Positions 16,569-53,549 of a stretch of 64,000 nt of DNA are shown here, piece after piece (the stretch's first letter is position 1; each line of letters starts with the position of its first letter). Position numbers and translations under genes: made by a program. This DNA is from Cellulophaga sp. BC115SP. GTDB taxonomy: Bacteria; Bacteroidota; Bacteroidia; Cytophagales; Spirosomataceae. Under the pieces are notes generated by a model that made no database searches, was not told the DNA's origin, and worked only from the letters and a program-made list of their open reading frames with translations. The DNA lies in contig NZ_JAAALB010000018.1 of the NCBI RefSeq assembly GCF_009905545.1, positions 1 to 64,000 of the forward strand. Reading direction: 5' to 3'.

Positions 16569-17597
16569 ATGATAGAAGTTAAAAAAGAAGGTATTTTATT
16601 GGAAAAAACATCTTTAGGGTTTGAAAGCCATGGAGTACTAAATCCAGCTGTGTTAATAGAAAATGGCGTGATTCATTTATTCTATAGAGCCGTTAGTAAA
16701 GACAATTACTCTACAATTGGATATTGTAAACTCGATGGACCTATGTCTATCAGTGAACGCCAAGATACGCCTATTTTGTATCCGCAAAATTCTTTCGAGT
16801 CACATGGAATAGAGGATCCCAGAATTGTAAAAATTGATAACCTCTATTATATGACTTATACTGCTTACGATGGGAATAATTCTCTAGGAGCGTTAGCAAT
16901 TTCGGATGACCTACAAAAATTCGAAAAGGTGGGGATTGTAGTTCCGTGTATTCCATTTCATGAATTTGCACACTTATCGCAAACTAAAACCCCATTAAAT
17001 GACAAATATTTAAGATATAATGAATATAAAAAAGAGCTTATTCACGACGACCATCAAAGTTTTGTTTGGGATAAGAACCTTATTTTTTTCCCCAGAAAGA
17101 TAGATGGATATTTCCATTTTATTCATAGAATAAAACCAGATATTCAGATAGTAAAGGTGGATAAACTAGAGAGCCTCACTCCATCATTTTGGCAAAGTTA
17201 TTTTTTAGACTTTAATGCGCATATCCTAATGTCACCGAAGTATGAACATGAGGTTAGTTATATAGGAGGTGGATGCCCGCCAATAGAAACTAAAGAAGGA
17301 TGGTTACTGATTTACCACGGTGTACATGACACCCTTGAAGGATACGTTTATTCAGCTTGTGTGGCCTTGCTCGATTTAACAAATCCTTGTGTAGAAATCG
17401 CAAGACTTCCTTACCCTTTATTTAGTCCTATGTTTGAGTGGGAGAAAGCAGGATTGGTCAACAATGTTTGTTTTCCGTCTGGCGCAATAGTGTTAAAGGA
17501 CAAGCTTTATATTTATTATGGTGCAACTGACGAACATATTGCTTGCGCCACTGTAAACCTTCCCGACTTACTCAATGAACTATTGAGCCAAAAATAG
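16569..17597 (+). CDS. GH130-family mannoside phosphorylase/hydrolase
   Basis: 342 residues, a five-bladed propeller. GLNPAVL-type opening (GVLNPAVLIENGVIHLFYRA), then SHGIEDPRIVKI with Glu82-Asp83-Pro-Arg85 of the GH130 core, the QSFVWDKNLIFFPRKI stretch, GGGCPPIETKEGWLLIYHG in the fourth blade, and a final YYGATDEHIACA. GH130 enzymes phosphorolyse or hydrolyse beta-mannosides; the phosphate-binding Arg/His set was not checked residue by residue, so phosphorylase versus hydrolase is open. No signal peptide, so it acts in the cytosol. Probably linked to the GT4/(alpha/alpha) protein at 7441-9834. Confidence 0.85.
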   Translation: MIEVKKEGILLEKTSLGFESHGVLNPAVLIENGVIHLFYRAVSKDNYSTIGYCKLDGPMSISERQDTPILYPQNSFESHGIEDPRIVKIDNLYYMTYTAYDGNNSLGALAISDDLQKFEKVGIVVPCIPFHEFAHLSQTKTPLNDKYLRYNEYKKELIHDDHQSFVWDKNLIFFPRKIDGYFHFIHRIKPDIQIVKVDKLESLTPSFWQSYFLDFNAHILMSPKYEHEVSYIGGGCPPIETKEGWLLIYHGVHDTLEGYVYSACVALLDLTNPCVEIARLPYPLFSPMFEWEKAGLVNNVCFPSGAIVLKDKLYIYYGATDEHIACATVNLPDLLNELLSQK

Positions 17598-17680
17598 GTT
17601 AATAACAATTTAATAAGGCTGTCTTTATAATCTTAGATTTCTAATAAGACCATATCTTGTTTAAACATAAGTCATCCCTA

Positions 17681-17830
17681 ATTTAGTGATTTAGCGATTG
17701 AATGAATGAGTGATTAATTTAAAATTTGTATTCCATCAGTAGAGACGCAATGATTGCGTCTTAAGTCAAGTCATATCTAACATAGTAGCATCAAAAAGGG
17801 GTCGAAAAATATTTTTCAACCCCTTTTTGA
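17681..17830 (+). repeat. Convergent-junction repeat element, copy A
   Basis: About 150 bases between the convergent GH130 and PKD-lipoprotein genes. It contains an ATTTAGTGATTT head, a palindrome GACGCAAT-G-ATTGCGTC (17744-17760), an AAGTCAAGTCATATCTAACATAG linker, and a long hairpin at 17791-17830. The outer 12 bp of that hairpin are perfect (TCAAAAAGGGGT/ACCCCTTTTTGA), with seven inner pairs after one mismatch. Same elements, order and orientation as copies at 38793 and 52291. Likely a bidirectional terminator. Confidence 0.85.
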
Positions 17831-17883
17831 TAAAAACTTGGAGAATAATCCCAATCCTAAAAATTCGGGATGACTCATGTTTT

Positions 17884-18798
17884 TTAATCTTTAGTCAACA
17901 CTAAGTCATACTTATGCGTATAGAAATCTGCTTCAAAATGTATAGTTAGTTTCCTTCCATCAAGAGCGATTGTTCCAATACATTTTCTTTGGTTATTTCC
18001 ATCGAGAGAGGTGTTGGTCTCATTTATCAGAAACTTTGAAGTTGATTCAGCTTTGATGCTTGTGAACTTAAAAATATCACTAATTATATCGCTGTAGTAC
18101 CTACCATTAAGATAAGTTCCATATTGTATTAGTTCTGCATTAACTGTATTCTTATCTACTTTAACAACTTTAAGCTTTGCAGATCGTGAGTTAACCGTGG
18201 ATAGATAACAACAAGTATAATTTAGACTTCCAGAGTAGCTACCAATTAGCAAGTCACTTGGTTCTATAACCTTTGATACCCTAATTGTTTTGGTATCACT
18301 GGCAGTCCCTCCAGCACCCTTTCCAGTAAGTTTCACAGAAAACTCCTTATTGTCATCAAATTGAACAGTAGGGTTTGTCTCTGTTGATAATTTACCATTT
18401 CCAAAATTCCATTCATAAGAATCAGCGCCAGTGGATTTGTTAGTAAAAGTTACAAAACCATTATCCTTTTCGACATAATCAAAACTAATCATTACAGGAG
18501 CTGGTATCGATGATATTTTGATAGACTTAGGCTTTGTATTCTGACCTCCAGCGCCTTTGGCAGTTAAATTGACAACATACTCCTTATTCGTATCATACTG
18601 AAAACTTGGGTTCTTTTCGCTTGACCGTTGCCCATTACCGAAATCCCATTCATAGGTTTCGGCTCCTGAAGATTTATTGGTAAATAGAACTAAACCTTTT
18701 TCTTTTTCAACAAACTCAAAGTCTGCAATTACGGGTTCTTCTTTTGAACATGATGTGAACAATAGTAGCGCACTAATTAATAGGCTAAAAAATCTCAT
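17884..18798 (-). CDS. Lipoprotein with two PKD domains
   Basis: Start at ATG 18798, which gives a clean lipoprotein signal with Cys17 (LLFTSC). Two PKD domains follow (about 20-95 and 105-180), each with SxGAxxYEWxFGNG and a PxxQxDxNKExxVxLxxxGxGG ending. The C-terminal 110 residues form an unassigned beta-rich domain with LNYTCCYLS and FTSIKAES. PKD domains usually mediate protein or polysaccharide contact at the cell surface. A longer upstream frame would only add hydrophobic and basic residues before the signal. Confidence 0.85.
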   Translation of the reverse strand: MRFFSLLISALLLFTSCSKEEPVIADFEFVEKEKGLVLFTNKSSGAETYEWDFGNGQRSSEKNPSFQYDTNKEYVVNLTAKGAGGQNTKPKSIKISSIPAPVMISFDYVEKDNGFVTFTNKSTGADSYEWNFGNGKLSTETNPTVQFDDNKEFSVKLTGKGAGGTASDTKTIRVSKVIEPSDLLIGSYSGSLNYTCCYLSTVNSRSAKLKVVKVDKNTVNAELIQYGTYLNGRYYSDIISDIFKFTSIKAESTSKFLINETNTSLDGNNQRKCIGTIALDGRKLTIHFEADFYTHKYDLVLTKD

Positions 18799-18977
18799 TT
18801 TGAATAAAATTAGGAATGAACGTTTAATAATAATTTGTAATGTGAAATAGTATAGAGTTTTCATGTATCTGAGATGAAATAGGGGGTTAAATGTAGTAAT
18901 GGTAGTAGATACATTAACTTTTTCATTTTTAACGGTGTTTGAATTTTAGATAGCAAAAGTAATTTATATAATCCAAA

Positions 18978-20505: not shown

Positions 20506-20577
20506 TAGTCCGTACGGGAATCGAACCCGTGTTTCATCCGTGAAAGGGACGTGTCCTAACCCCTAGACGAACGGACC
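20506..20577 (-). tRNA. tRNA-Glu(UUC), copy 1
   Basis: 72 bases. Minus-strand sequence begins GGTCCGTTCGTCTAG, has the anticodon loop CTTTCAC (anticodon TTC), the T-arm GGGTTCGATTCCC and ends ACGGACTA. Acceptor pairing GGTCCGT/ACGGACT includes a G-U at the first pair. It repeats at 20640-20711. Confidence 0.95.
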
Positions 20578-20639: not shown

Positions 20640-20711
20640 TAGTCCGTACGGGAATCGAACCCGTGTTTCATCCGTGAAAGGGACGTGTCCTAACCCCTAG
20701 ACGAACGGACC
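20640..20711 (-). tRNA. tRNA-Glu(UUC), copy 2
   Basis: Identical in sequence to the copy at 20506-20577, 134 bases away. The identical stretch also includes CTGATGGGG just upstream of the tRNA. A recent tandem duplication is the simplest reading. The pair sits directly beside the integrase gene. Confidence 0.95.
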
Positions 20712-29442: not shown

Positions 29443-31053
29443 TTAGTCTTTCTTTTGTTCTACTTTTCGAACAGTAGGATATTGTATACCTAACTGTTCC
29501 AAGTAGGTTTTGTACTTAGTAGGATCAAAGTAATATTGCTTGAGTTTGGGACGGTAAATTTCCATGATATTGGCATTAATCGCAATCGCAGGTTTATCTG
29601 TAGGAGCAATCAACGCTTCATATTTAATATCCTTGGTTTGAACATTTTTATAATAATCCCAAGCACTTTCAATGAGCTTTGGCTCGTTTAATAAGTCCAA
29701 AATTGTCAGCGCCTCTACTTTCGCCCCTGCTGTAATTCCTTTGTGTGCAATAGGAGTAGCCATCGAGATGGCATTTGCCCAGTGGTGCCCCGGCAAACCC
29801 GGAATATTTGAAGGATAACCCAATACAATGGTCGGCAATGACCAAGAAATATCCGCAATATCGTCTGAACCTCCGCCCATCGAGCCTACAACCTCCAAAA
29901 CAGTATCGATTTCGGCACGAAGTCCTTTCTGTTCTGGCGAACTAAGTTCCTGCTGAATTCCCTTCGCTAATTGCTGATCAGCATCTGACCATGTAGGTAA
30001 GCCTACACGTTTGATATGTGAAAAGGCTCTTTCGGCAATAGGTTTGTTAAAATGCCCGGGCCATGCGCTTCCTAGTACCTCCCACGAGACTTTAGTATCT
30101 GTCATCATGGCAGCACCTTGAGCTATTTTTTTACCAAAATCATACAATTCTTTGATTTTGGGATAAGTACGTTCTCTGAAATAATACCAAACCGAAGCTT
30201 TAGAAGGAACTACATTTGGCTGGTCGCCCCCATTTACTACTACATAATGTGAGCGCTGTGTTGGCAAAAGGTGTTCTCTTTTATAATTCCAGCCCACATT
30301 CATCAATTCTACTGCATCAAGAGCACTTTTACCACGCCAAGGGTTCGCAGCGGCATGAGCAGCTTCGCCTTCAAAATTGAACTTTACCGAAACCAAGCCA
30401 TTATTTCCTGCATCACCATGTTTTACGCTCAAATTGCTGTTAACGTGGGTAAAAATACACGCATCTACATCTTTGAAATAACCATCACGAATGTAAAAAG
30501 CCTTTGTTCCCACCAATTCCTCAGCAACCCCAGGCCAAAGCATCAAGGTTCCTGAAAGTTTTTCACGCTCCATGATTTTTTTGAGCACCAAGGCAGAAGT
30601 AATATTCAGTGCCTGACCAGAATTATGACCTTCTCCATGCCCAGGGGCACCATCTACAATTGGGTCGTGATAGGCCACACCAGGTTTTTGTGAAGCTTTG
30701 GGAATACAGTCGACATCCGATCCGATGGCAATGACAGGTTTACCTGCCCCCCAAGTAGCAATCCAAGCCGTTGGGACTCCAGAAATACCCTTTTGAATCG
30801 TAAAGCCTTCTTTTTCTAAAAGATTAATCAAATACTGCGAGGTTTCGGTTTCTTGAAAACCTAATTCGGCAAAACTGAAAATCATATCATTGACCTGCGC
30901 AGAAAATTCTTTTCTTTTATCAACTTCCTCGATAATTTCTTTTTGGAGCGCTTTGATTTTTTGTGGAGAAAGCTTTTGAGCAAAGATTGGTTGAGTCAAA
31001 AATGCACTTGCGACCAACATGAGTGTTGGAAGTTTTCGGAAAAATTGCTTCAT
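29443..31053 (-). CDS. Secreted M20-family amidohydrolase (AbgB-like)
   Basis: 536 residues. A signal peptide of about 25 residues (MKQFFRKLPTLMLVASAFL then PIFAQ), then a zinc amidohydrolase of the M20D subfamily. Metal-site motifs: GSDVDCIP in the N-terminal lobe, APGHGEGHNSG with the bridging His, and MGGGSDDIADISW, resembling AbgB (p-aminobenzoyl-glutamate hydrolase subunit). Dimerisation/lid domain about 215-340. Substrate not established; it hydrolyses an N-acyl amino acid bond outside the cytoplasm. The long upstream region contains a candidate structured RNA on the same strand. Confidence 0.9.
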   Translation of the reverse strand: MKQFFRKLPTLMLVASAFLTQPIFAQKLSPQKIKALQKEIIEEVDKRKEFSAQVNDMIFSFAELGFQETETSQYLINLLEKEGFTIQKGISGVPTAWIATWGAGKPVIAIGSDVDCIPKASQKPGVAYHDPIVDGAPGHGEGHNSGQALNITSALVLKKIMEREKLSGTLMLWPGVAEELVGTKAFYIRDGYFKDVDACIFTHVNSNLSVKHGDAGNNGLVSVKFNFEGEAAHAAANPWRGKSALDAVELMNVGWNYKREHLLPTQRSHYVVVNGGDQPNVVPSKASVWYYFRERTYPKIKELYDFGKKIAQGAAMMTDTKVSWEVLGSAWPGHFNKPIAERAFSHIKRVGLPTWSDADQQLAKGIQQELSSPEQKGLRAEIDTVLEVVGSMGGGSDDIADISWSLPTIVLGYPSNIPGLPGHHWANAISMATPIAHKGITAGAKVEALTILDLLNEPKLIESAWDYYKNVQTKDIKYEALIAPTDKPAIAINANIMEIYRPKLKQYYFDPTKYKTYLEQLGIQYPTVRKVEQKKD

Positions 31054-32075
31054 GGTAATTTAGTTTTAGTTTGAAGTAAGATTTTATCTATCCCAAAAGC
31101 GCCAATGCTATTGGATTAGAAAAAATATATTAAAATTAAAGATTTGTGGATGAGATAAAAGGAAAAAGACTGGGAAAGCTAAAAAATAACAGGAAATACT
31201 TAATTGAGGAATTTTGGGATGGGTATAAAATAATAAAGACCCGCAGCAATGCTCCGAGCCTTTACGCAATCCGCCTAAGTAGTTATCTTTTGGGTAATCC
31301 ACCCGCGAGCCGAAGCTCTAAAGTTTGTTTGCTTTCGAGTCATAAGACTTTACTCACTCAGTTGATTTATCATCAACCTTGAATTTTTTTGGTGATTGAG
31401 TAGCGGCTCAATCACCATTCCAGTAGCGTGTGCGGCACTACGTCGAAAAAGCGGTCAATATCTAACCAAATATTTTTGAATTGAAACGTTCTTCAATTGC
31501 TATTTCTAATCTAAGTTGTAAGCCTAATTGGCTCACGTTGTAAACCTTTATTTTGTTGTTCTTGATTTACATTACAAATGTATTAACAATAAACGTGCCA
31601 AACAAATTTTATGAGACTTTTTTTTGAAAAATATTTCAAAATATCTAACCAATACTCAAATTACCTCATGAACTGACACCCTTACATGCAATTTTACCCA
31701 TAAACTGCTTTGGTATAATTAAAACAAGTTTCATGCCAAGAAAAGCACCTAATATCTTATTGGCGCAGAAAAAACCCTTTAAAGCACAAATTTTTGATAC
31801 TAATTTTCGTCCTTCTTATTTATTAATTTTCAATACAAATTTGTCATTTTATTGCTCAATTTATCAACAATGATAATTGTTGAATATATCATGATTTACG
31901 GCGAAAAATATACACAAATAATAAATTAAGCTTTTTTTTCTTGCTTTTTGCCATTTTTGATATTAGTATTGCATTAGTTCAAAACAATATCATTTTACCT
32001 ATTACTAGAGAAATTTCATCAATAAACCTTCTTTTTCTTGAAATTCAATAGCAACCCATGAATTAATACTAACCG
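31054..32075. other. Kilobase gap with a possible structured minus-strand RNA
   Basis: The part at 31225-31420 is clearly richer in G+C than its flanks and contains five hairpins (listed as an ncRNA candidate). 31420-32075 is AT-rich with no ORF, apart from the promoter region expected for the gene at 32076. Confidence 0.5.
31238..31416 (-). ncRNA. Candidate structured RNA or leader ending in a terminator
   Basis: Read on the minus strand: a 10-bp hairpin GGTGATTGAG-CCGCTA-CTCAATCACC (31416-31391), a 6-bp hairpin GTTGAT/ATCAAC (31377-31361), GAGC-TTCG-GCTC with a UUCG tetraloop (31318-31307), GGGT-GGATT-ACCC (31304-31292) and the terminal stem GGCTCGGAGC-ATT-GCTGCGGGTC followed by TTTATTATTTT. 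The last stem pairs well only as minus-strand RNA, where two G-U pairs form, so the minus strand is favoured. It could be a free RNA or an attenuator leader of the amidohydrolase gene that starts at 31053. No known class recognised. Confidence 0.4.
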
Positions 32076-37524: not shown

Positions 37525-38682
37525 ATGAAAAAAAATAGTCTTTTTCTACTTATATCATTAAGTGGTTGCAAGGACTTTATGTATTTGTCCTTACTAATAT
37601 TTAACCTACTTTCAATCTCTGCAAAATCTAATGATACTTCAATGGGATTCAGTGTATATTATCCCAAATACGCCCAAACGGGTCAAGAGGTGTCTTTCAA
37701 TTTTGCTACACGTTTGAATATCCATCGAATTCGTGTTTTTGTCAACGGCAGTAGCCTTGGTTCTACTTACGTTTCCAACAATCACGCCGAATTCAAATTC
37801 AAGTTTGTGTACGCCAGTACCAAAAAGCTAAAATTTGTCGGTTTTTCTCCTGATAACAATACCCTTAGCGAAGTCCAAGGGGAAATAACGATTGCTGGCA
37901 AAAATCAAATCTCTAAAGAAACTAAGTATGAATACACAAACGCTAGTTTGCCAAACAATACGACTGACAAAAGCTATAACTCCAATAGTGGGAGTATTAC
38001 AGCTGCTCTTTCGGGCGCCAGTGTGGTGTATCCTAATCCCAATGTACCTACTTTTTCAGATACTTTTGATGAAAACAATAAGGTAGTAACCAATGTATAT
38101 CCCTTCGAACAGCCTACCAACGAAGTAGCATGGACATTTTTTAGTAGTATTCAAAATGAAGTGATTCCTCTCGCACACAAATATCGTGTACCTGCTAGTG
38201 TAATTATGGCGATGGCAGCATTAGAGAGTGGTTATGGATATAGTCCTATTTCAATTGCTGCTAATAATTATTTTGGCATCAAACAATGGAAACCCTCAGC
38301 AGATGGCTACCAACTAAAAGGACAAGCAGATGAACATAACGGAAGGGTAAGAATCCTAAAAAACGCAGGACAAGGGCAATATATTTATGATGAAGCCCGC
38401 AGGAAAGATAATTGGTATCGCTCTTTCAAATCACGAGCTGAATGTATCAAGTTTTTGGTAGAAGAAGTTTTTTTACATAAAACAGGAAAATGGAAACGAG
38501 ACTACTCAGGAGCCGTACGAGACTATCAGAATCGTCTGGATAGAGGATTTTCGAAATACGATGCGGCTTATCAGTTTGCTTTTCAGCTAGGTTCAAAAGG
38601 TTATAATCATTTGGGAGGCAAATATTATGCTGATAAAACCATTAAGATTATCGAAAAATATAATCTACTTAGTTTTGATTAA
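37525..38682 (+). CDS. Glucosaminidase-domain (GH73-type) cell-wall hydrolase
   Basis: 385 residues: hydrophobic N-terminus (about 1-35) acting as a signal or anchor, a beta-rich Ig-like domain (about 45-130) with VFVNGSSLGSTYVSNNHAEF, a Ser/Asn linker, and a C-terminal GH73 domain (about 205-385). In the latter, the acid Glu lies in MAALESGYGYSPIS and the second block is NNYFGIKQW. Cleaves the GlcNAc-MurNAc bond of peptidoglycan. Stand-alone, followed by a repeat element with a terminator. Confidence 0.85.
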   Translation: MKKNSLFLLISLSGCKDFMYLSLLIFNLLSISAKSNDTSMGFSVYYPKYAQTGQEVSFNFATRLNIHRIRVFVNGSSLGSTYVSNNHAEFKFKFVYASTKKLKFVGFSPDNNTLSEVQGEITIAGKNQISKETKYEYTNASLPNNTTDKSYNSNSGSITAALSGASVVYPNPNVPTFSDTFDENNKVVTNVYPFEQPTNEVAWTFFSSIQNEVIPLAHKYRVPASVIMAMAALESGYGYSPISIAANNYFGIKQWKPSADGYQLKGQADEHNGRVRILKNAGQGQYIYDEARRKDNWYRSFKSRAECIKFLVEEVFLHKTGKWKRDYSGAVRDYQNRLDRGFSKYDAAYQFAFQLGSKGYNHLGGKYYADKTIKIIEKYNLLSFD

Positions 38683-38792
38683 ACTATTGGTAAATAAAAG
38701 ATGTATCCGTACTTTGTGGTCATAATCTCAGTAACTTGATTTTTTGAATTACCCACAACAAACTAAAGCTAAGTTAACATGATTCCTCACTC

Positions 38793-38944
38793 ATTTAGTG
38801 ATTTGTAATTGAGTGATTTAGTGATTATTAAAAATCTATATTTTAACAGTAAAGACGCAATGCTTTGCGTCTAAAGAGGTATCATTCGGAATATAGTATC
38901 AAAAAAAGCGGTCGAAAATTATTTTTTCGACCGCTTTTTTTGAT
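38793..38944 (+). repeat. Convergent-junction repeat element, copy B
   Basis: Between the convergent glucosaminidase and pyrB genes. It has the ATTTAGTGATTT head, an AGACGCAA-TGCT-TTGCGTCT stem (38853-38872), and a 21-bp perfect hairpin (38898-38944, core AAAAAAGCGGTCGAAAA, loop TTATT) ending TTTTTTTGAT. Same order and orientation as copies A and C. Confidence 0.85.
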
Positions 38945-39052
38945 GAACATTTGGGTATTGATGCTGAAACTCTCAAAAGTCACATCTAATATAAAAACCT
39001 ATTATTAAAATACTTATACAGTAAATACTCCCTCACAATTTAGTATTATTTC

Positions 39053-39976
39053 TTAGTTCTGCGCTGCTAACAAATATAACACTGCCATACGCACTGCTAC
39101 ACCGTTTTCTACCTGATCAAGAATAATAGAATGATGAGAATCAGCGGCATCTGAAGTAAGTTCAACCCCACGGTTGATAGGTCCTGGGTGCATTAGTACG
39201 ATTTCTTTATCCAGTTCATCCAACATTTTTTTGTTGATACCATAGTACAAAGAATACTCACGCAAAGACGGGAAATACTTGATTTGTTGGCGTTCCAACT
39301 GAATACGCAATACGTTGGCTACATCGCACCATGCCAAAGCTTTTTTAACATCGTGGCAAACTGTTACGCCTAGTTCAGTAATATGTCGAGGAATCAAGGT
39401 AGAAGGACCACAAAGCATTACTTCTGCACCTTGTTTTTTTAAGGCAAAAATATTGGACAATGCGACACGAGAGTGTAAAATATCGCCGATAATAGCGATT
39501 TTCTTTCCTGCTAAATCACCCAATTTTTCACGCATCGAAAACGAATCTAATAATGCCTGTGTTGGGTGCTCATGCGTGCCATCGCCAGCATTAACGATAT
39601 TGGCACTGATATGTTTTGACAAATAATGTGGTGCTCCTGGACTAGCATGACGCATCACAATCATATCTACTTTCATGGCCAAAATGTTATTGACCGTATC
39701 CAAAAGTGTTTCTCCTTTTTTTACAGAACTTCCTGCTGCTGAAAAGCTTAAAGTATCGGCCGATAGGCGTTTTTCTGCTAATTCAAAAGAGAGACGTGTA
39801 CGAGTTGAGTTTTCGAAAAATACATTAGCAATTGTCACATCACGAAGCGAAGGCACTTTTTTGATAGGACGATTGATAACTTCTTTAAACTCGGTGGCAG
39901 TAGCCATGATGAGTTCGATATCTTCAGGAGTTAGGTCTTTGATACCCAAAAGATGGCGAGTGCTTAATTTTTGCAT
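39053..39976 (-). CDS. pyrB: Aspartate carbamoyltransferase, catalytic chain
   Basis: 307 residues. Carbamoyl-phosphate site STRTR (57-61) after FFEN, KKGET (about 85-89), HPTQALLDSFS, then HPGPINRGVE. These are all the standard active-site blocks. It forms carbamoyl-aspartate from carbamoyl phosphate and aspartate, the committing step of pyrimidine synthesis. It follows pyrR on the minus strand with 80 bases between; both are read from one promoter upstream of pyrR. No pyrI regulatory chain is nearby. Confidence 0.96.
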   Translation of the reverse strand: MQKLSTRHLLGIKDLTPEDIELIMATATEFKEVINRPIKKVPSLRDVTIANVFFENSTRTRLSFELAEKRLSADTLSFSAAGSSVKKGETLLDTVNNILAMKVDMIVMRHASPGAPHYLSKHISANIVNAGDGTHEHPTQALLDSFSMREKLGDLAGKKIAIIGDILHSRVALSNIFALKKQGAEVMLCGPSTLIPRHITELGVTVCHDVKKALAWCDVANVLRIQLERQQIKYFPSLREYSLYYGINKKMLDELDKEIVLMHPGPINRGVELTSDAADSHHSIILDQVENGVAVRMAVLYLLAAQN

Positions 39977-41763: not shown

Positions 41764-42079
41764 CATTATCATTCGTCTGCTTTAGGCTGTAAGCTTTAGA
41801 CATTAAGCCAAAAAGCTTTTTTGCATTCATTGGGAACATTTTTGCCGAAAGCCCATTGCTGAAAGTCGAAAGCCAAAATTTGATTTTTATATTACCCATT
41901 AACTTGGGCAAAGAGAATATTGACATTAGTTTCACACTACATACGTATCTCTTTGCCTATTTTCTATTAAACAGTTCATACTACATCTACCGTCAATTGG
42001 TTTTCCATCATTTACAAAAATATCTCTACTCCTCTCTTTCAACGTTTAATCTCAACTCACATACTATCCTAAATAATTA
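41764..42079. other. Gap with weak hairpin and GAAAGCC repeats
   Basis: GCCAAAAAGCTTTTTT at about 41807 may terminate the preceding gene. CGAAAGCCCATTGCTGAAAG and CGAAAGCC at 41844-41873 form a short imperfect repeat. No ORF is convincing. Confidence 0.45.
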
Positions 42080-49917: not shown

Positions 49918-52278
49918 ATGAAATTATATCGCTACCTAACATTACTTGTTGCTTTCTTCCCAAGCCTATTAATGGCTCAAGATGTTCCGTCAAGTATGGT
50001 CATTGGCTCTGTTAATGTAAAGATTACGGATGAGGCGCGCACCAAAATCCAAAATGAAATTAGCCCTCTCACCATCAATTCAAACTATCTGAATAGAATG
50101 GTGAGCCGAATGCTAACCTATTTGCCTTCGGTTGAGCGCATTTTACAAGAGGAAAGAATTCCTGATGAAATAAAATACCTATGTGTGCAAGAAAGTTTCT
50201 TGAGCCCAGATGCACGTTCGACTTCGGATGCAATCGGCTATTGGCAATTCAAAAAAGAAACTGCCAAAAATTTTAATCTCCGAGTAGACGCTGTAGTAGA
50301 CGAACGCAAGCATCTTATGGCATCGACTAAGGCAGCTTGTAGCTATTTTAAGAAACATAAAGATTTGTTGGGCAACTGGGTTGCCAGTATTTTGTCGTAC
50401 CGCTTGGGCTATACCAGTTTTAGAAAAGCCAAAGAGATGGAATGGGCAAACAAGTCTGAAATTACCGTTACTGGCGAAACGGACTGGTATATTATTCGTT
50501 TCTTGGCCTATAAGCTTGTCCTTGACCAAGAATACAACAAAGCCAAACAAAATCCTCCTATTAGTAATCCAGTACTGTTTGAGTATAGTAAAACAAAGGG
50601 TAAAAGTCTTTACGAAATTGCTACCTTTCTGAAAGTAAGTACTCAAGAATTAGAACTTTCTAACTCTTGGCTTACCTCAAAGTCTGTTCCCGACGACAAA
50701 GATTATACAGTCTATTTGATTGTAGATCCGATGAAGTATCAAGAGCTCATGAATATTGTCGATGCTACTGATAATAATAATAATTCGTCGAACAACTATA
50801 ATAATAATAGTGGCAGCATTTCAAATGGTCCAGACACTACACCAGATATTGGCTTCCCTGTGCTCAAAAGACTCTCGCCTGCCAATACTAACCCCAATGA
50901 GCCTATTTATTACGAAATAAATGGGAAAAAAGGGATTTTAGCATTGGAAGGAGACACACCCGAAAAAATAGCTGAACGTGGAGATGTTAGTTTAAAGAAA
51001 TTTTTGAAATATAATGATTTGGAAGATAACGAGCGTATCATTCCTAATCAGGTATATTATTTGCGTAAAAAAGACCGCAAAGCACAAGTAGCATTCCACA
51101 CAGTTCGTGGGAATGAATCTCTTTGGCAAGTATCTCAAATGTACGGTATCAATTTAGATGACTTAAAGGAGAAAAACCGTATTACAACAGTTCAAAGGTT
51201 ACAAAAAGGAAGACTTCTTTATCTTATCGACACCCGTTCGGAGAAGGATGATATTCAGATTGTCAAAGATTCAGAGCAACCTCAGCCTCCTAAAGATACC
51301 AATAAAAATCCTGTACCTACACCTCCTAAAGAAGCACCAAAACAAGATAACAATACTAGCAGTGGTGTAGACAAAATGCCACCTCCAATTCTTGTAAATC
51401 CAGGCACCTCAACCAAACAACCTGATGTTCCTGTAACGCCACCTAGTACTACAAAAAAAGACCCTGATCCTTTGGATCCTGTGTACCCAACACCGAATCC
51501 AAAACCTACGAATCCAACACCGCCAAGCGATGCAAGTGATTCAAAGAAAAACTTGAATATTGGCTCACACCGCGTTGAGGCAAAACAAACTTATTACAGC
51601 ATTGCCCGTTTGTATAATATGTCTGTAGCAGACTTATATCAACTCAATGGCGTAGATGCAAGCGTAACATTGCGCGTTGGTCAGGATTTGAAAGTTTATA
51701 AAAATGGGGCTTCAGATGCTTTAATTGGTAATAAAGACAACGTTATTCCTAACGATAACAAAAAGCCGAAGCCATCAGCTATTGATGAACCTATTTATAA
51801 TACCCCTGAAAAAAATGAGGCACCAGTAAAAAACCCTGACAATACTGGAACATCAACGTTTGAAAGGTCAACCAATAAGCCCATTTTTAAGCTTGTACAT
51901 ACAGTTCAAAAAGGAGAAACGCTTTTCCGTATTGCTCAGTTTTATAATGTGAATGCCGCAGATCTTCGCAACTGGAATAGTTTGCCATCCAGTAATGTTG
52001 AAGTAGGACAAGAAATTTCGATTCCAGGAGAATTTGCTCATTTGCCAATCGAAGGTCCAGGAACAAGCACTTACAGTTCTGTTGCTCTTCCTGAAAAACC
52101 TCATGCTCGTACTCCAATAGAATATACTCCTACTGAGACGAAATATCATACGGTAAAAGCAGGAGAAACGGCGTTCCGTATTTCACAAATGTATGGACTA
52201 ACGGTATCTCAATTCTTAAAAATGAACGGTTTATCAAGTCCATCGATTTCTGCTGGACAAAAACTAAAAGTTAAGTAA
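49918..52278 (+). CDS. LysM-repeat lytic transglycosylase (MltD-like)
   Basis: 786 residues. Signal peptide 1-20 (ends MAQ), SLT domain (about 60-185) with catalytic Glu92 in CVQESFLSPDA and GYWQFK, then about six LysM-type repeats. The first (about 225-250) is weak; others are near 340-385, 395-435, 550-590, 655-700 and 740-786. Between them are long Pro/Asn/Asp-rich linkers (e.g. PPKDTNKNPVPTPPKE). It should bind and cleave peptidoglycan glycan strands in the periplasm. The large number of LysM repeats is above the two or three usual in MltD. Confidence 0.9.
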   Translation: MKLYRYLTLLVAFFPSLLMAQDVPSSMVIGSVNVKITDEARTKIQNEISPLTINSNYLNRMVSRMLTYLPSVERILQEERIPDEIKYLCVQESFLSPDARSTSDAIGYWQFKKETAKNFNLRVDAVVDERKHLMASTKAACSYFKKHKDLLGNWVASILSYRLGYTSFRKAKEMEWANKSEITVTGETDWYIIRFLAYKLVLDQEYNKAKQNPPISNPVLFEYSKTKGKSLYEIATFLKVSTQELELSNSWLTSKSVPDDKDYTVYLIVDPMKYQELMNIVDATDNNNNSSNNYNNNSGSISNGPDTTPDIGFPVLKRLSPANTNPNEPIYYEINGKKGILALEGDTPEKIAERGDVSLKKFLKYNDLEDNERIIPNQVYYLRKKDRKAQVAFHTVRGNESLWQVSQMYGINLDDLKEKNRITTVQRLQKGRLLYLIDTRSEKDDIQIVKDSEQPQPPKDTNKNPVPTPPKEAPKQDNNTSSGVDKMPPPILVNPGTSTKQPDVPVTPPSTTKKDPDPLDPVYPTPNPKPTNPTPPSDASDSKKNLNIGSHRVEAKQTYYSIARLYNMSVADLYQLNGVDASVTLRVGQDLKVYKNGASDALIGNKDNVIPNDNKKPKPSAIDEPIYNTPEKNEAPVKNPDNTGTSTFERSTNKPIFKLVHTVQKGETLFRIAQFYNVNAADLRNWNSLPSSNVEVGQEISIPGEFAHLPIEGPGTSTYSSVALPEKPHARTPIEYTPTETKYHTVKAGETAFRISQMYGLTVSQFLKMNGLSSPSISAGQKLKVK

Positions 52279-52290
52279 GCAGATATTAAT

Positions 52291-52443
52291 ATTTAGTGAT
52301 TTGAGATTGAGTGAATGAGTGATTATTTTAATATTTATATTCTAGCAGTAGAGACGCAATGATTGCGTCTTAAGCCAAGTTATATCTAACATAATAGCGT
52401 AAAAAAGCGGTCGAAAAATAATTTTCGACCGCTTTTTTACGCT
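52291..52443 (+). repeat. Convergent-junction repeat element, copy C
   Basis: Between the convergent transglycosylase and O-methyltransferase genes. ATTTAGTGATTT head, AGACGCAAT-G-ATTGCGTCT palindrome (52352-52370), and a 22-bp perfect hairpin (52396-52443, AGCGTAAAAAAGCGGTCG and complement, loop ATAA). Same order as copies A and B, with the outer stem changed on both arms. Confidence 0.88.
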
Positions 52444-52560
52444 AAATTTCATTGTGATATATCCCTCGATACAAAGTACTGCGTATCTACTACTAAGATT
52501 TAGCTTAGCATAATCACTAAATCGCTCCATCACAACTCACTCAATATTCAAATATGCCTC

Positions 52561-53208
52561 TTACAATTTTCTAGAAATCATAATACCATCTCTCAATGGC
52601 AATAAGATATTTTCTGTTCTAGGATCATCGTGACACATTTTGTTGAAATCTAATAAGTTTTTGGTATCCTTATCAATCTTCTTGCCTTCTTCTACATTGG
52701 CAACTTTGCCGCTCCACAAAACATTGTCAGAAAGAATATAGCCACCTTTACGAACTTTATCAAAAACTAAATTATAGTATTTGGTATAGTTCATTTTATC
52801 AGCATCAATAAATACCAAGTCAAAAACTTCGTCGAGGGTTGGAATAATTTCTCCTGCATCACCAATACGATAATCAATTTTATCAGCATAAGGAGATTCG
52901 TCAAAAAAACTACGCGTAAATGTTTCTAACTCTTCATTTACGTCGATGGTAATAATTTTGCCATCATCTGCCAAACCCTCCGCCAAACAAAGTGCAGAAT
53001 ACCCCGTATAAGTCCCAATTTCAAGGATACGACGTGGGCGCATCATATAACTTACCTCCGCCAAATAACGTCCTTGTAAATGCCCTGAGAGCATACGAGG
53101 TTGTAAGATTTTGACGTGTGTATCTCTATTCAGTTTTTTCAACAAATCACTCTCAGGCGTGGTATGCTGTTCTGAATAGTCATTAATATTTTGTGGAAGA
53201 AAATCCAT
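52561..53208 (-). CDS. Class I SAM-dependent O-methyltransferase (COMT-like)
   Basis: 215 residues. It contains the SAM-binding block ILEIGTYTGYSALCLA, IITIDVNEELETF, the metal-binding DLVFIDADKMNY and a DNVLWSGKV motif with Asp-Asn, typical of the metal-dependent caffeoyl-CoA-type O-methyltransferases. Cytoplasmic; substrate unknown. A repeat element lies on its upstream side. Confidence 0.93.
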   Translation of the reverse strand: MDFLPQNINDYSEQHTTPESDLLKKLNRDTHVKILQPRMLSGHLQGRYLAEVSYMMRPRRILEIGTYTGYSALCLAEGLADDGKIITIDVNEELETFTRSFFDESPYADKIDYRIGDAGEIIPTLDEVFDLVFIDADKMNYTKYYNLVFDKVRKGGYILSDNVLWSGKVANVEEGKKIDKDTKNLLDFNKMCHDDPRTENILLPLRDGIMISRKL

Positions 53209-53258: not shown

Positions 53259-53549
53259 ATTATGAGTTGAGAATTGTGAATGATGAATTAGTCCTTTATA
53301 TTGGAAATATTGCCTAATTTTTGCCTCATATTTCAGGAAAATTATGGAATACTCCCCTATTTTCGAAATCAGAAATTCATAACTAGTAGTGTACAAAGGA
53401 TTATGAAAAATGTTTATTTCGAAAGTATAATCTTCTAAATTTTGTAAAAAAATAAAGGTATTTTACTTTATTTCCGAAATCAGAAATCCCAAATCTGAAA
53501 TTGTTGGAAATCCTTCGTACAGTCTCCTAATTCATAACTCACAATTCTA
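53259..53549. repeat. Imperfect terminal-inverted-repeat element
   Basis: GAGAATTGTGAATGATGAATTAG (53269-53291) and CTAATTCATAACTCACAATTCTA (53526-53548) are inverted repeats with 20 of 23 positions matching. The first shares GAATTGTGAATGAyGAATTA with the element at 25721. Inside, CGAAATCAGAAAT occurs at 53364 and 53475. It fills the gap between two methyltransferase genes. Confidence 0.55.

Follow-up and report, generated by a model that had tools for sequence, protein, structure and literature searches.

A dispersed element at gene 3′ ends in Flectobacillus: a probable MITE of an IS4-like IS that carries a predicted bidirectional terminator

By analogy, the nearest known case to the element described here appears to be SPRITE of pneumococcus, presented in PMC3049150 as a MITE-like, terminator-resembling repeat close to gene 3′ ends; 15 of its 30 copies lie between convergent genes, target-site duplication is not established, and its authors suggest that it was co-opted as a terminator. 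BrickBuilt of Porphyromonas gingivalis, as described in PMC4596501, is a MITE from the Bacteroidota with an internal tandem repeat and terminal inverted repeats (TIRs) like those of resident ISs, and the terminator discussed there belongs to a neighbouring gene, not to BrickBuilt. GTAG-tagged REPs and BIMEs, according to PMC3733652, combine GTAG with a palindrome, form many inverted pairs and lie mostly between convergent or unidirectional genes; the REP-targeting ISs of PMC1525189 prefer a dispersed palindromic repeat, as the IS reported below may do; and the ordinary bidirectional terminators with compensatory evolution described in PMC5381666 likewise have a convergent-gap stem that undergoes two-sided changes. 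For terminator-carrying MITEs and for ISs that insert into terminators or REPs, SPRITE, BrickBuilt and the REP-targeting ISs were the nearest cases found in the open-access literature, where no title or beginning of an abstract reported a Flectobacillus repeat or transposase element of such kind.

The element that we describe differs from each of these. Compared by description, the TIRs of SPRITE are AAAA/TTTT only and its copies number 30 (PMC3049150), whereas here the TIRs are 22 bp long and shared with an IS, the copies number well over 100, and the unit includes, unlike SPRITE, a REP-like palindrome and tandem repeats. BrickBuilt has IS5-family TIRs, a 23-nt minisatellite and 19 copies (PMC4596501). 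In contrast to the GTAG REPs of PMC3733652, our palindrome is one module of a TIR-bounded unit and had no RAYT link at 10 loci, and in contrast to the REP-targeting ISs of PMC1525189, the IS ends here abut the edges of a terminator stem and not the REP-like palindrome.

The window, by which we mean the whole 64,000-nt stretch of DNA that was analysed, contains three related copies (A, B and C), each in the gap between two convergent genes (Table 1). The original prediction had described them as a single unit of about 150 bp with a GACGCAA palindrome and a long hairpin. Their relatedness stood, with a REP-like palindrome and a long hairpin (21–23 bp per arm, 95–100% complementary) in all three; the size did not, as copy A is 220 bp long, with 22-bp TIRs at both borders and 176 nt between the two TIR arms. 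From an alignment of 30 copies of the same genome we read the module order as TIR AAACATGAGTCATCCCNAATTT, 8-nt tandem repeats, GTAGAGACGCAATGATTGCGTCT, a linker ending in ATC, AAAAAAGCGGTCGAAAAATATTTTTCGACCGCTTTTTTGAT, a tail and the inverted TIR; the number of 8-nt units differs among copies, with gaps there in the alignment. In a subset of 46 copies, selected because both TIRs are present, 21 of the 22 positions of the left TIR show one base in at least 34 copies, and the base bias ends just outside the element edge. At about 200–222 bp and with no transposase gene, the element lies within the size range of MITEs (50–1000 bp). Copy B represents a second subtype (GACGCAATGCTTTGCGTC).

Table 1. 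Coordinates in the window of the three element copies, their modules and the flanking genes
Feature	Position	Strand	Remarks
Copy A, full-length element	17663..17882	+	edges from TIRs and 30-copy alignment
Copy A, left TIR	17663..17684	+	91% complementary over 22 nt to 17861-17882; 90-91% match to IS ends
Copy A, tandem repeats, four 8-nt units of AGTGATTT type	17685..17716	+	sequence, alignment
Copy A, GTAG-tagged REP-like palindrome GTAGAGACGCAATGATTGCGTCT	17739..17761	+	
Copy A, linker	17762..17789	+	30-copy alignment
Copy A, long hairpin, predicted bidirectional intrinsic terminator	17790..17831	.	21-nt arms, 95% complementary
Copy A, right TIR	17861..17882	+	23/23 nt identical to both IS ends
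Copy B, subtype 2 element, no clear right TIR	38777..38967	+	model match; nhmmer 96 bits
Copy B, REP-like palindrome AGACGCAATGCTTTGCGTCT	38853..38872	+	
Copy B, predicted bidirectional terminator	38898..38944	.	21-nt arms, 100% complementary
Copy C, element without recognisable TIRs	52287..52449	+	model match; nhmmer 140 bits
Copy C, GTAG-tagged REP-like palindrome	52348..52370	+	
Copy C, predicted bidirectional terminator	52395..52444	.	23-nt arms, 100% complementary
Minus-strand match at copy C: shared terminator plus degenerate inverted half-unit downstream	about 52401-52547	-	nhmmer 55.8 bits
Gene left of copy A, Glyco_hydro_130	16569..17597	+	
Gene right of copy A, PKD domains	17884..18864	-	
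Gene left of copy B, Glucosaminidase	37525..38682	+	
Gene right of copy B, OTCace domains	39053..39976	-	
Gene left of copy C, SLT plus LysM	49918..52278	+	
Gene right of copy C, O-methyltransferase	52561..53208	-	

Three further features of the window were recorded: another dispersed repeat, ~130 bp long, which lies between two genes of the minus strand (53416-53547), with many matches in G001 and G003; a repeat-like stretch (41779-41905) with a match elsewhere in G003 (C45:12647-12773); and two equal-scoring tRNA genes in tandem on the minus strand (20506-20577 and 20640-20711).

The 17-mer GACGCAANNNTTGCGTC occurs at 84 sites in the 7.08-Mb genome, versus 0 for the reversed pattern, and an element model built from the sequences of the 30 copies gave at least 156 genome matches (150 of 6231 candidates scored), some of which overlap on opposite strands. 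The stretches around the 150 listed matches, together with the window, made up a 1.78-Mb sample, a quarter of the genome, in which genes were called with a simple dicodon model. This sample holds 148 non-overlapping copies of at least 70 bits, and 137 of them could be placed (most of the other 11 lie at ends of sampled stretches): 90 in convergent gaps, 46 in tandem gaps and 1 in a divergent gap, whose left ‘gene’ is a weak 123-bp ORF. The element is thus located at gene 3′ ends (136/137 placed copies in convergent or tandem gaps), and the original claim that it always lies between convergent genes holds for the three window copies but not genome-wide. Weaker matches were distributed alike, with 18 convergent and 5 tandem at 40–70 bits, and 19 convergent, 4 tandem, 1 divergent and 2 at edges at 18–40 bits. 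Counted over all sample gaps that hold a copy or measure at least 100 bp, the element occupied 89/174 convergent, 45/564 tandem and 1/235 divergent gaps (convergent vs. divergent, Fisher p about 2e-39); because the sampled stretches were chosen for holding copies, these occupancies are not genome-wide, yet such selection does not account for the contrast between classes. Copies in convergent gaps have a median distance of 11.5 bp to the nearest stop, and 39/46 tandem-gap copies are closer to the upstream stop than to the downstream start. The shared orientation of the window copies, which had been taken as a rule, is a matter of chance, as orientation in convergent gaps is random (46 plus, 44 minus; p = 0.92).

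Among 39 genomes searched (59 candidates scored per genome), element matches at E 1e-5 were obtained in the element’s own genome and in four congeners, one of which (G004) has one weak match only, and none in the other 34; the element belongs to the genus Flectobacillus. At one place in its own genome (G000:C141 about 30786-31221, L116:7459-7894) two copies share one gap and a flanking piece is repeated, which suggests a local tandem duplication.

From its letters, the long hairpin looks like a bidirectional intrinsic terminator: the GC-containing stem has a T-tract on both strands, with an A-tract before the GC core and a T-tract behind it in copy A whichever strand is read, and the copy A hairpin appears in the predicted folds of both strands. 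A hairpin was obtained for 139/148 copies, and their best stems comprise 2702/2824 Watson-Crick pairs, 70 G-U pairs and 52 mismatches; these counts are inflated because the best stem was picked, so the fair test is a shuffle. The 7-nt cores behind the A-tract take 24 left-arm forms, and in the 134 copies with two comparable arm cores the left and right cores were identical in 101, against a mean of 41.1 and a maximum of 53 in 2000 shuffles. Of the core pairs with neither arm of the commonest form (53), 38 match, and 18 pairs have the commonest form on one arm only. That hairpin arms differ between copies yet match within each, as originally noticed, is therefore well borne out; of the further proposal that pairing is under selection, the two-sided matching stands but the proof does not, because exchange of whole elements also alters both arms together. 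Selection on arm pairing is likely, though not separated from such exchange.

A screen of the 1.78 Mb for strict A4-stem-T4 hairpins found 229, namely 133 inside elements (at least 40 bits) and 96 elsewhere, and divergent gaps hold 0/221 of those that could be placed. The GGTCG-type core characterises 105/133 of the strict hairpins in elements vs. 6/96 elsewhere, and outside elements no starting 7-mer occurs more than twice; the stems here thus form a dispersed family with mostly one core type, whereas those described in PMC5381666 are resident. On the results of this screen, the elements resemble terminators and occupy terminator positions. The element could still be a pure parasite tolerated behind genes, with a hairpin that does not end host transcripts, much as the pneumococcal IS, BOX and RUP elements, which are enriched in convergent gaps, are read as tolerated parasites in PMC3049150. 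We consider this unlikely, given that the arms stay matched while their letters change, that the element-free orthologous gap B (the gap of copy B) holds other terminator-like hairpins and that elements and other strict hairpins occupy the same types of gap. The processed-RNA alternative of the original prediction, taken here as a small or riboswitch-like RNA, gained no support and strikes us as very improbable: copy A does fold far better than shuffles on both strands (z −8.1 and −8.9), but both strands fold equally well, as a TIR element would, the location follows gene ends, and the window contains no Rfam match at gathering scores except two tRNAs.

The TIR has 124 sites at no more than 1 mismatch (control, 0), several of them no farther than about 150 bp from a contig end. 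As 121/124 are in or at elements, we rejected the candidate of a TIR-bearing autonomous element inside the 1.78-Mb sample; an IS was traced from one of the other three matches and from contig ends. It is 1452 bp long in G003 (L250:6511-7962), and two copies in G001 are 93% identical to it. Copies of the IS with both ends in place were found in G001 and G003; in G000, where the matches lie at or close to contig ends, none was seen with both. The 49 IS-end matches obtained (at most 40 candidates scored per genome) include 13 in G000 and 31 in G003, mostly at contig ends. The G003 frame encodes 447 aa with a DDE_Tnp_1 domain (Pfam 28 bits, cut-off 23), and the frame is shorter in the two G001 copies; none of the 11 NCBIfam models listed reaches its cut-off with the protein (best IS4_3, 50 bits vs. 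160), and the nearest are IS4-family models. Compared with copy A, each IS end is identical to the right TIR over 23/23 nt and matches the left TIR at 90–91%, and beyond the TIRs copy A and the IS share nothing except a marginal 14-nt match (E 0.47). Because the TIRs are identical and nothing else is common, we read the element as a MITE of this IS4-like IS; it is by shared TIRs that a short element is usually assigned to an IS as its MITE (as set out in PMC4596501 and PMC3049150).

Target-site duplications are called frequent in MITEs in PMC4596501 and characteristic of them in PMC3049150. Here, 0/46 copies had a direct repeat of at least 4 bp at the TIR edges, and shorter repeats were of 3 bp in 4 copies (1.0 expected) and of 2 bp in 7 (3.4 expected). 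IS4-type elements typically leave longer duplications than these. Shifting the TIR edges raised the excess at most to 2 copies with 5 bp (0.11 expected), a value selected out of many offsets. At the 3 IS copies with both flanks, no duplication was seen by eye. The inverted repeats seemed at a few copies to extend past the TIRs in a locus-specific way, which permutation rejected (p 0.34 and 0.19; 46 copies).

Element sequence lies within 150 bp of 12/27 IS ends vs. 16/400 random sample pieces. These 27 are the ends with an outer flank available among the 49 matches, once 4 of 31 had been dropped as element TIRs (L250_Lend_0, L340_Lend_7, L357_Lend_25 and L125_Lend_29, two of which had element matches; before dropping, the count was 14/31). 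At 9 of the 12, the element match stops at model position 130–135 or 165–167, abutting the IS; model positions about 131–168 are, as read from the alignment, the terminator with its tracts, so that the IS ends abut the stem edges. In L250, the only case with element beside both IS flanks, the stem is absent on either side, and the other 15/27 IS ends have no element. Two routes would give this picture: preferential insertion of the IS at terminator edges with later loss of the stem, or replacement of the stem by the insertion itself. With these nine IS ends at missing-stem edges, and with hairpins that alternate with elements at gap B, we tentatively raise the possibility, itself rather doubtful, that the IS/MITE family homes on terminator hairpins, the IS landing at A-/T-tract edges with loss of the stem and the MITE bringing a two-way stem.

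The palindrome raises the question of whether the element is instead a GTAG-type REP/BIME family spread by a RAYT, with the terminator as a passenger. The REP cores start with GTAG in 114/139 cases (the loose search pattern itself included GTAG) and have the exact GACGCAA..TTGCGTC palindrome in 80/139, inverted pairs occur, and the exact palindrome pattern is present in 7/200 family genomes, 4 of them outside the genus; moreover, a RAYT of the own genome (97 bits with NCBIfam REP_Tyr_transpos, cut-off 80) adjoins a truncated element copy, its palindrome cut at GTAGAGAC. Nonetheless, this RAYT has different hairpins of its own, no GTAGAGACGCAA within 2 mismatches was found in ~1.3 kb around 10 Y1_Tnp genes (8 genomes; 10/53 matches), G002 has 0 Y1_Tnp matches yet at least 59 element matches, and the unit has sharp TIRs common to a DDE-type IS. 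We therefore hold spread by a RAYT to be quite improbable and retain the reading of the element as a MITE of the IS.

The RAYT locus is of interest in its own right. The gene (L046:1444-1995, in G000:C35), with its own hairpins GTGCTGGA...TCCAGCAC, stands where the palindrome of the truncated element would continue, with a remnant near L046:2237-2323, and the locus lies between convergent genes (polA-like and M28-peptidase-like by eye). In another genus, G181 has a tandem array of a 33-bp unit on GTAGAGACGCAATACTTTGCGTCT beside a masked stretch (L186:657-847). In L187, L188 and L202 (G115, G044), GTAGAGACGCAATGCTTGCGTCT-type palindromes are paired in inverted, REPIN-like fashion at a spacing of about 100 bp, and no terminator stem was seen there by eye.

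We compared 22 orthologous element sites with 800 kb of G003 (element match of 20 bits or more): the element is present in matching orientation at 16, reversed at 3 and absent at 3, two of the last within one duplicated gap and the third with poorly matching flanks. No clean empty site was found among these three element-free sites and gap B of F. longus. The opposite-orientation pairs are only 64–79% identical; simple DNA inversion between the TIRs was rejected on this ground, and exchange or separate insertion fits better. Orientation is kept at sites 31, 66, 71 and 111, where the element is 71–79% identical vs. 85–93% for the flanks. Both sets of sites are compatible with the arms co-changing through whole-element recombination or template-switch palindrome repair rather than through selection on pairing. 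However, one two-sided core change is seen at site 101 (89% element identity), and at copy C (98% identity) the outer stem is altered on both sides; we regard co-change without selection as a serious possibility but not the favoured one.

Close relatives also differ in what stands at a given junction. In gap B, the window and G003 have the element, F. longus has a short, unrelated hairpin (AAAATCCCCCACCAAT...ATTGATGGGGGATTTT) and G002 has a third, unrelated hairpin (both by eye). In the gap of copy C, G003 resembles the window, and F. longus has a different full-length copy, reversed. The left-hand gene of copy A has a homologue in G002 (74% identity over 156 bp), and behind it stands an element with both arms changed; the right-hand neighbour there looks different.

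We think it likely that the element is a Flectobacillus MITE of an IS4-like IS that carries a bidirectional intrinsic terminator able to replace native ones. This reading draws on the observed TIR match to the IS, anatomy, copy number, gap preference, matching arms and hairpin differences among congeners. The original suggestion of a mobile bidirectional terminator cassette fits well with the IS-shared TIRs, the more than 100 copies, the 1/137 in a divergent gap and the unrelated terminator-like hairpins of two congeners in the same gap; the patterns that would speak against it, namely equal numbers in tandem or divergent gaps or stems that do not covary, were sought, and what was found was covariation and a strong bias in placement, still with 46/137 placed copies tandem. 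The IS transposase, judging by the shared TIRs, is most likely what moves the element in trans, and it would do so via the 22-bp TIRs. Transcription entering from either side would end at the element, where the RNA would form a GC-rich hairpin with a U-tract behind it. Copies have built up behind genes, above all in convergent gaps, where harm would be small, a site preference that may come from targeting or from purging. Finally, the element may take over from the native terminator.

The origin of bacterial terminators is rarely visible, and here a single genome seems to draw a hundred or so terminators, perhaps more, from one dispersed family that has a probable parent IS. As close relatives differ at the same junctions, terminator turnover becomes testable. 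The composite of IS-type TIRs, GTAG palindrome, tandem repeats and two-way stem unites repeat classes usually treated apart. As the TIRs are those of a Flectobacillus IS, a selfish element may now end many host transcripts. If the family does home on hairpins, gene ends in Flectobacillus would be served by exchangeable, transposable terminators.
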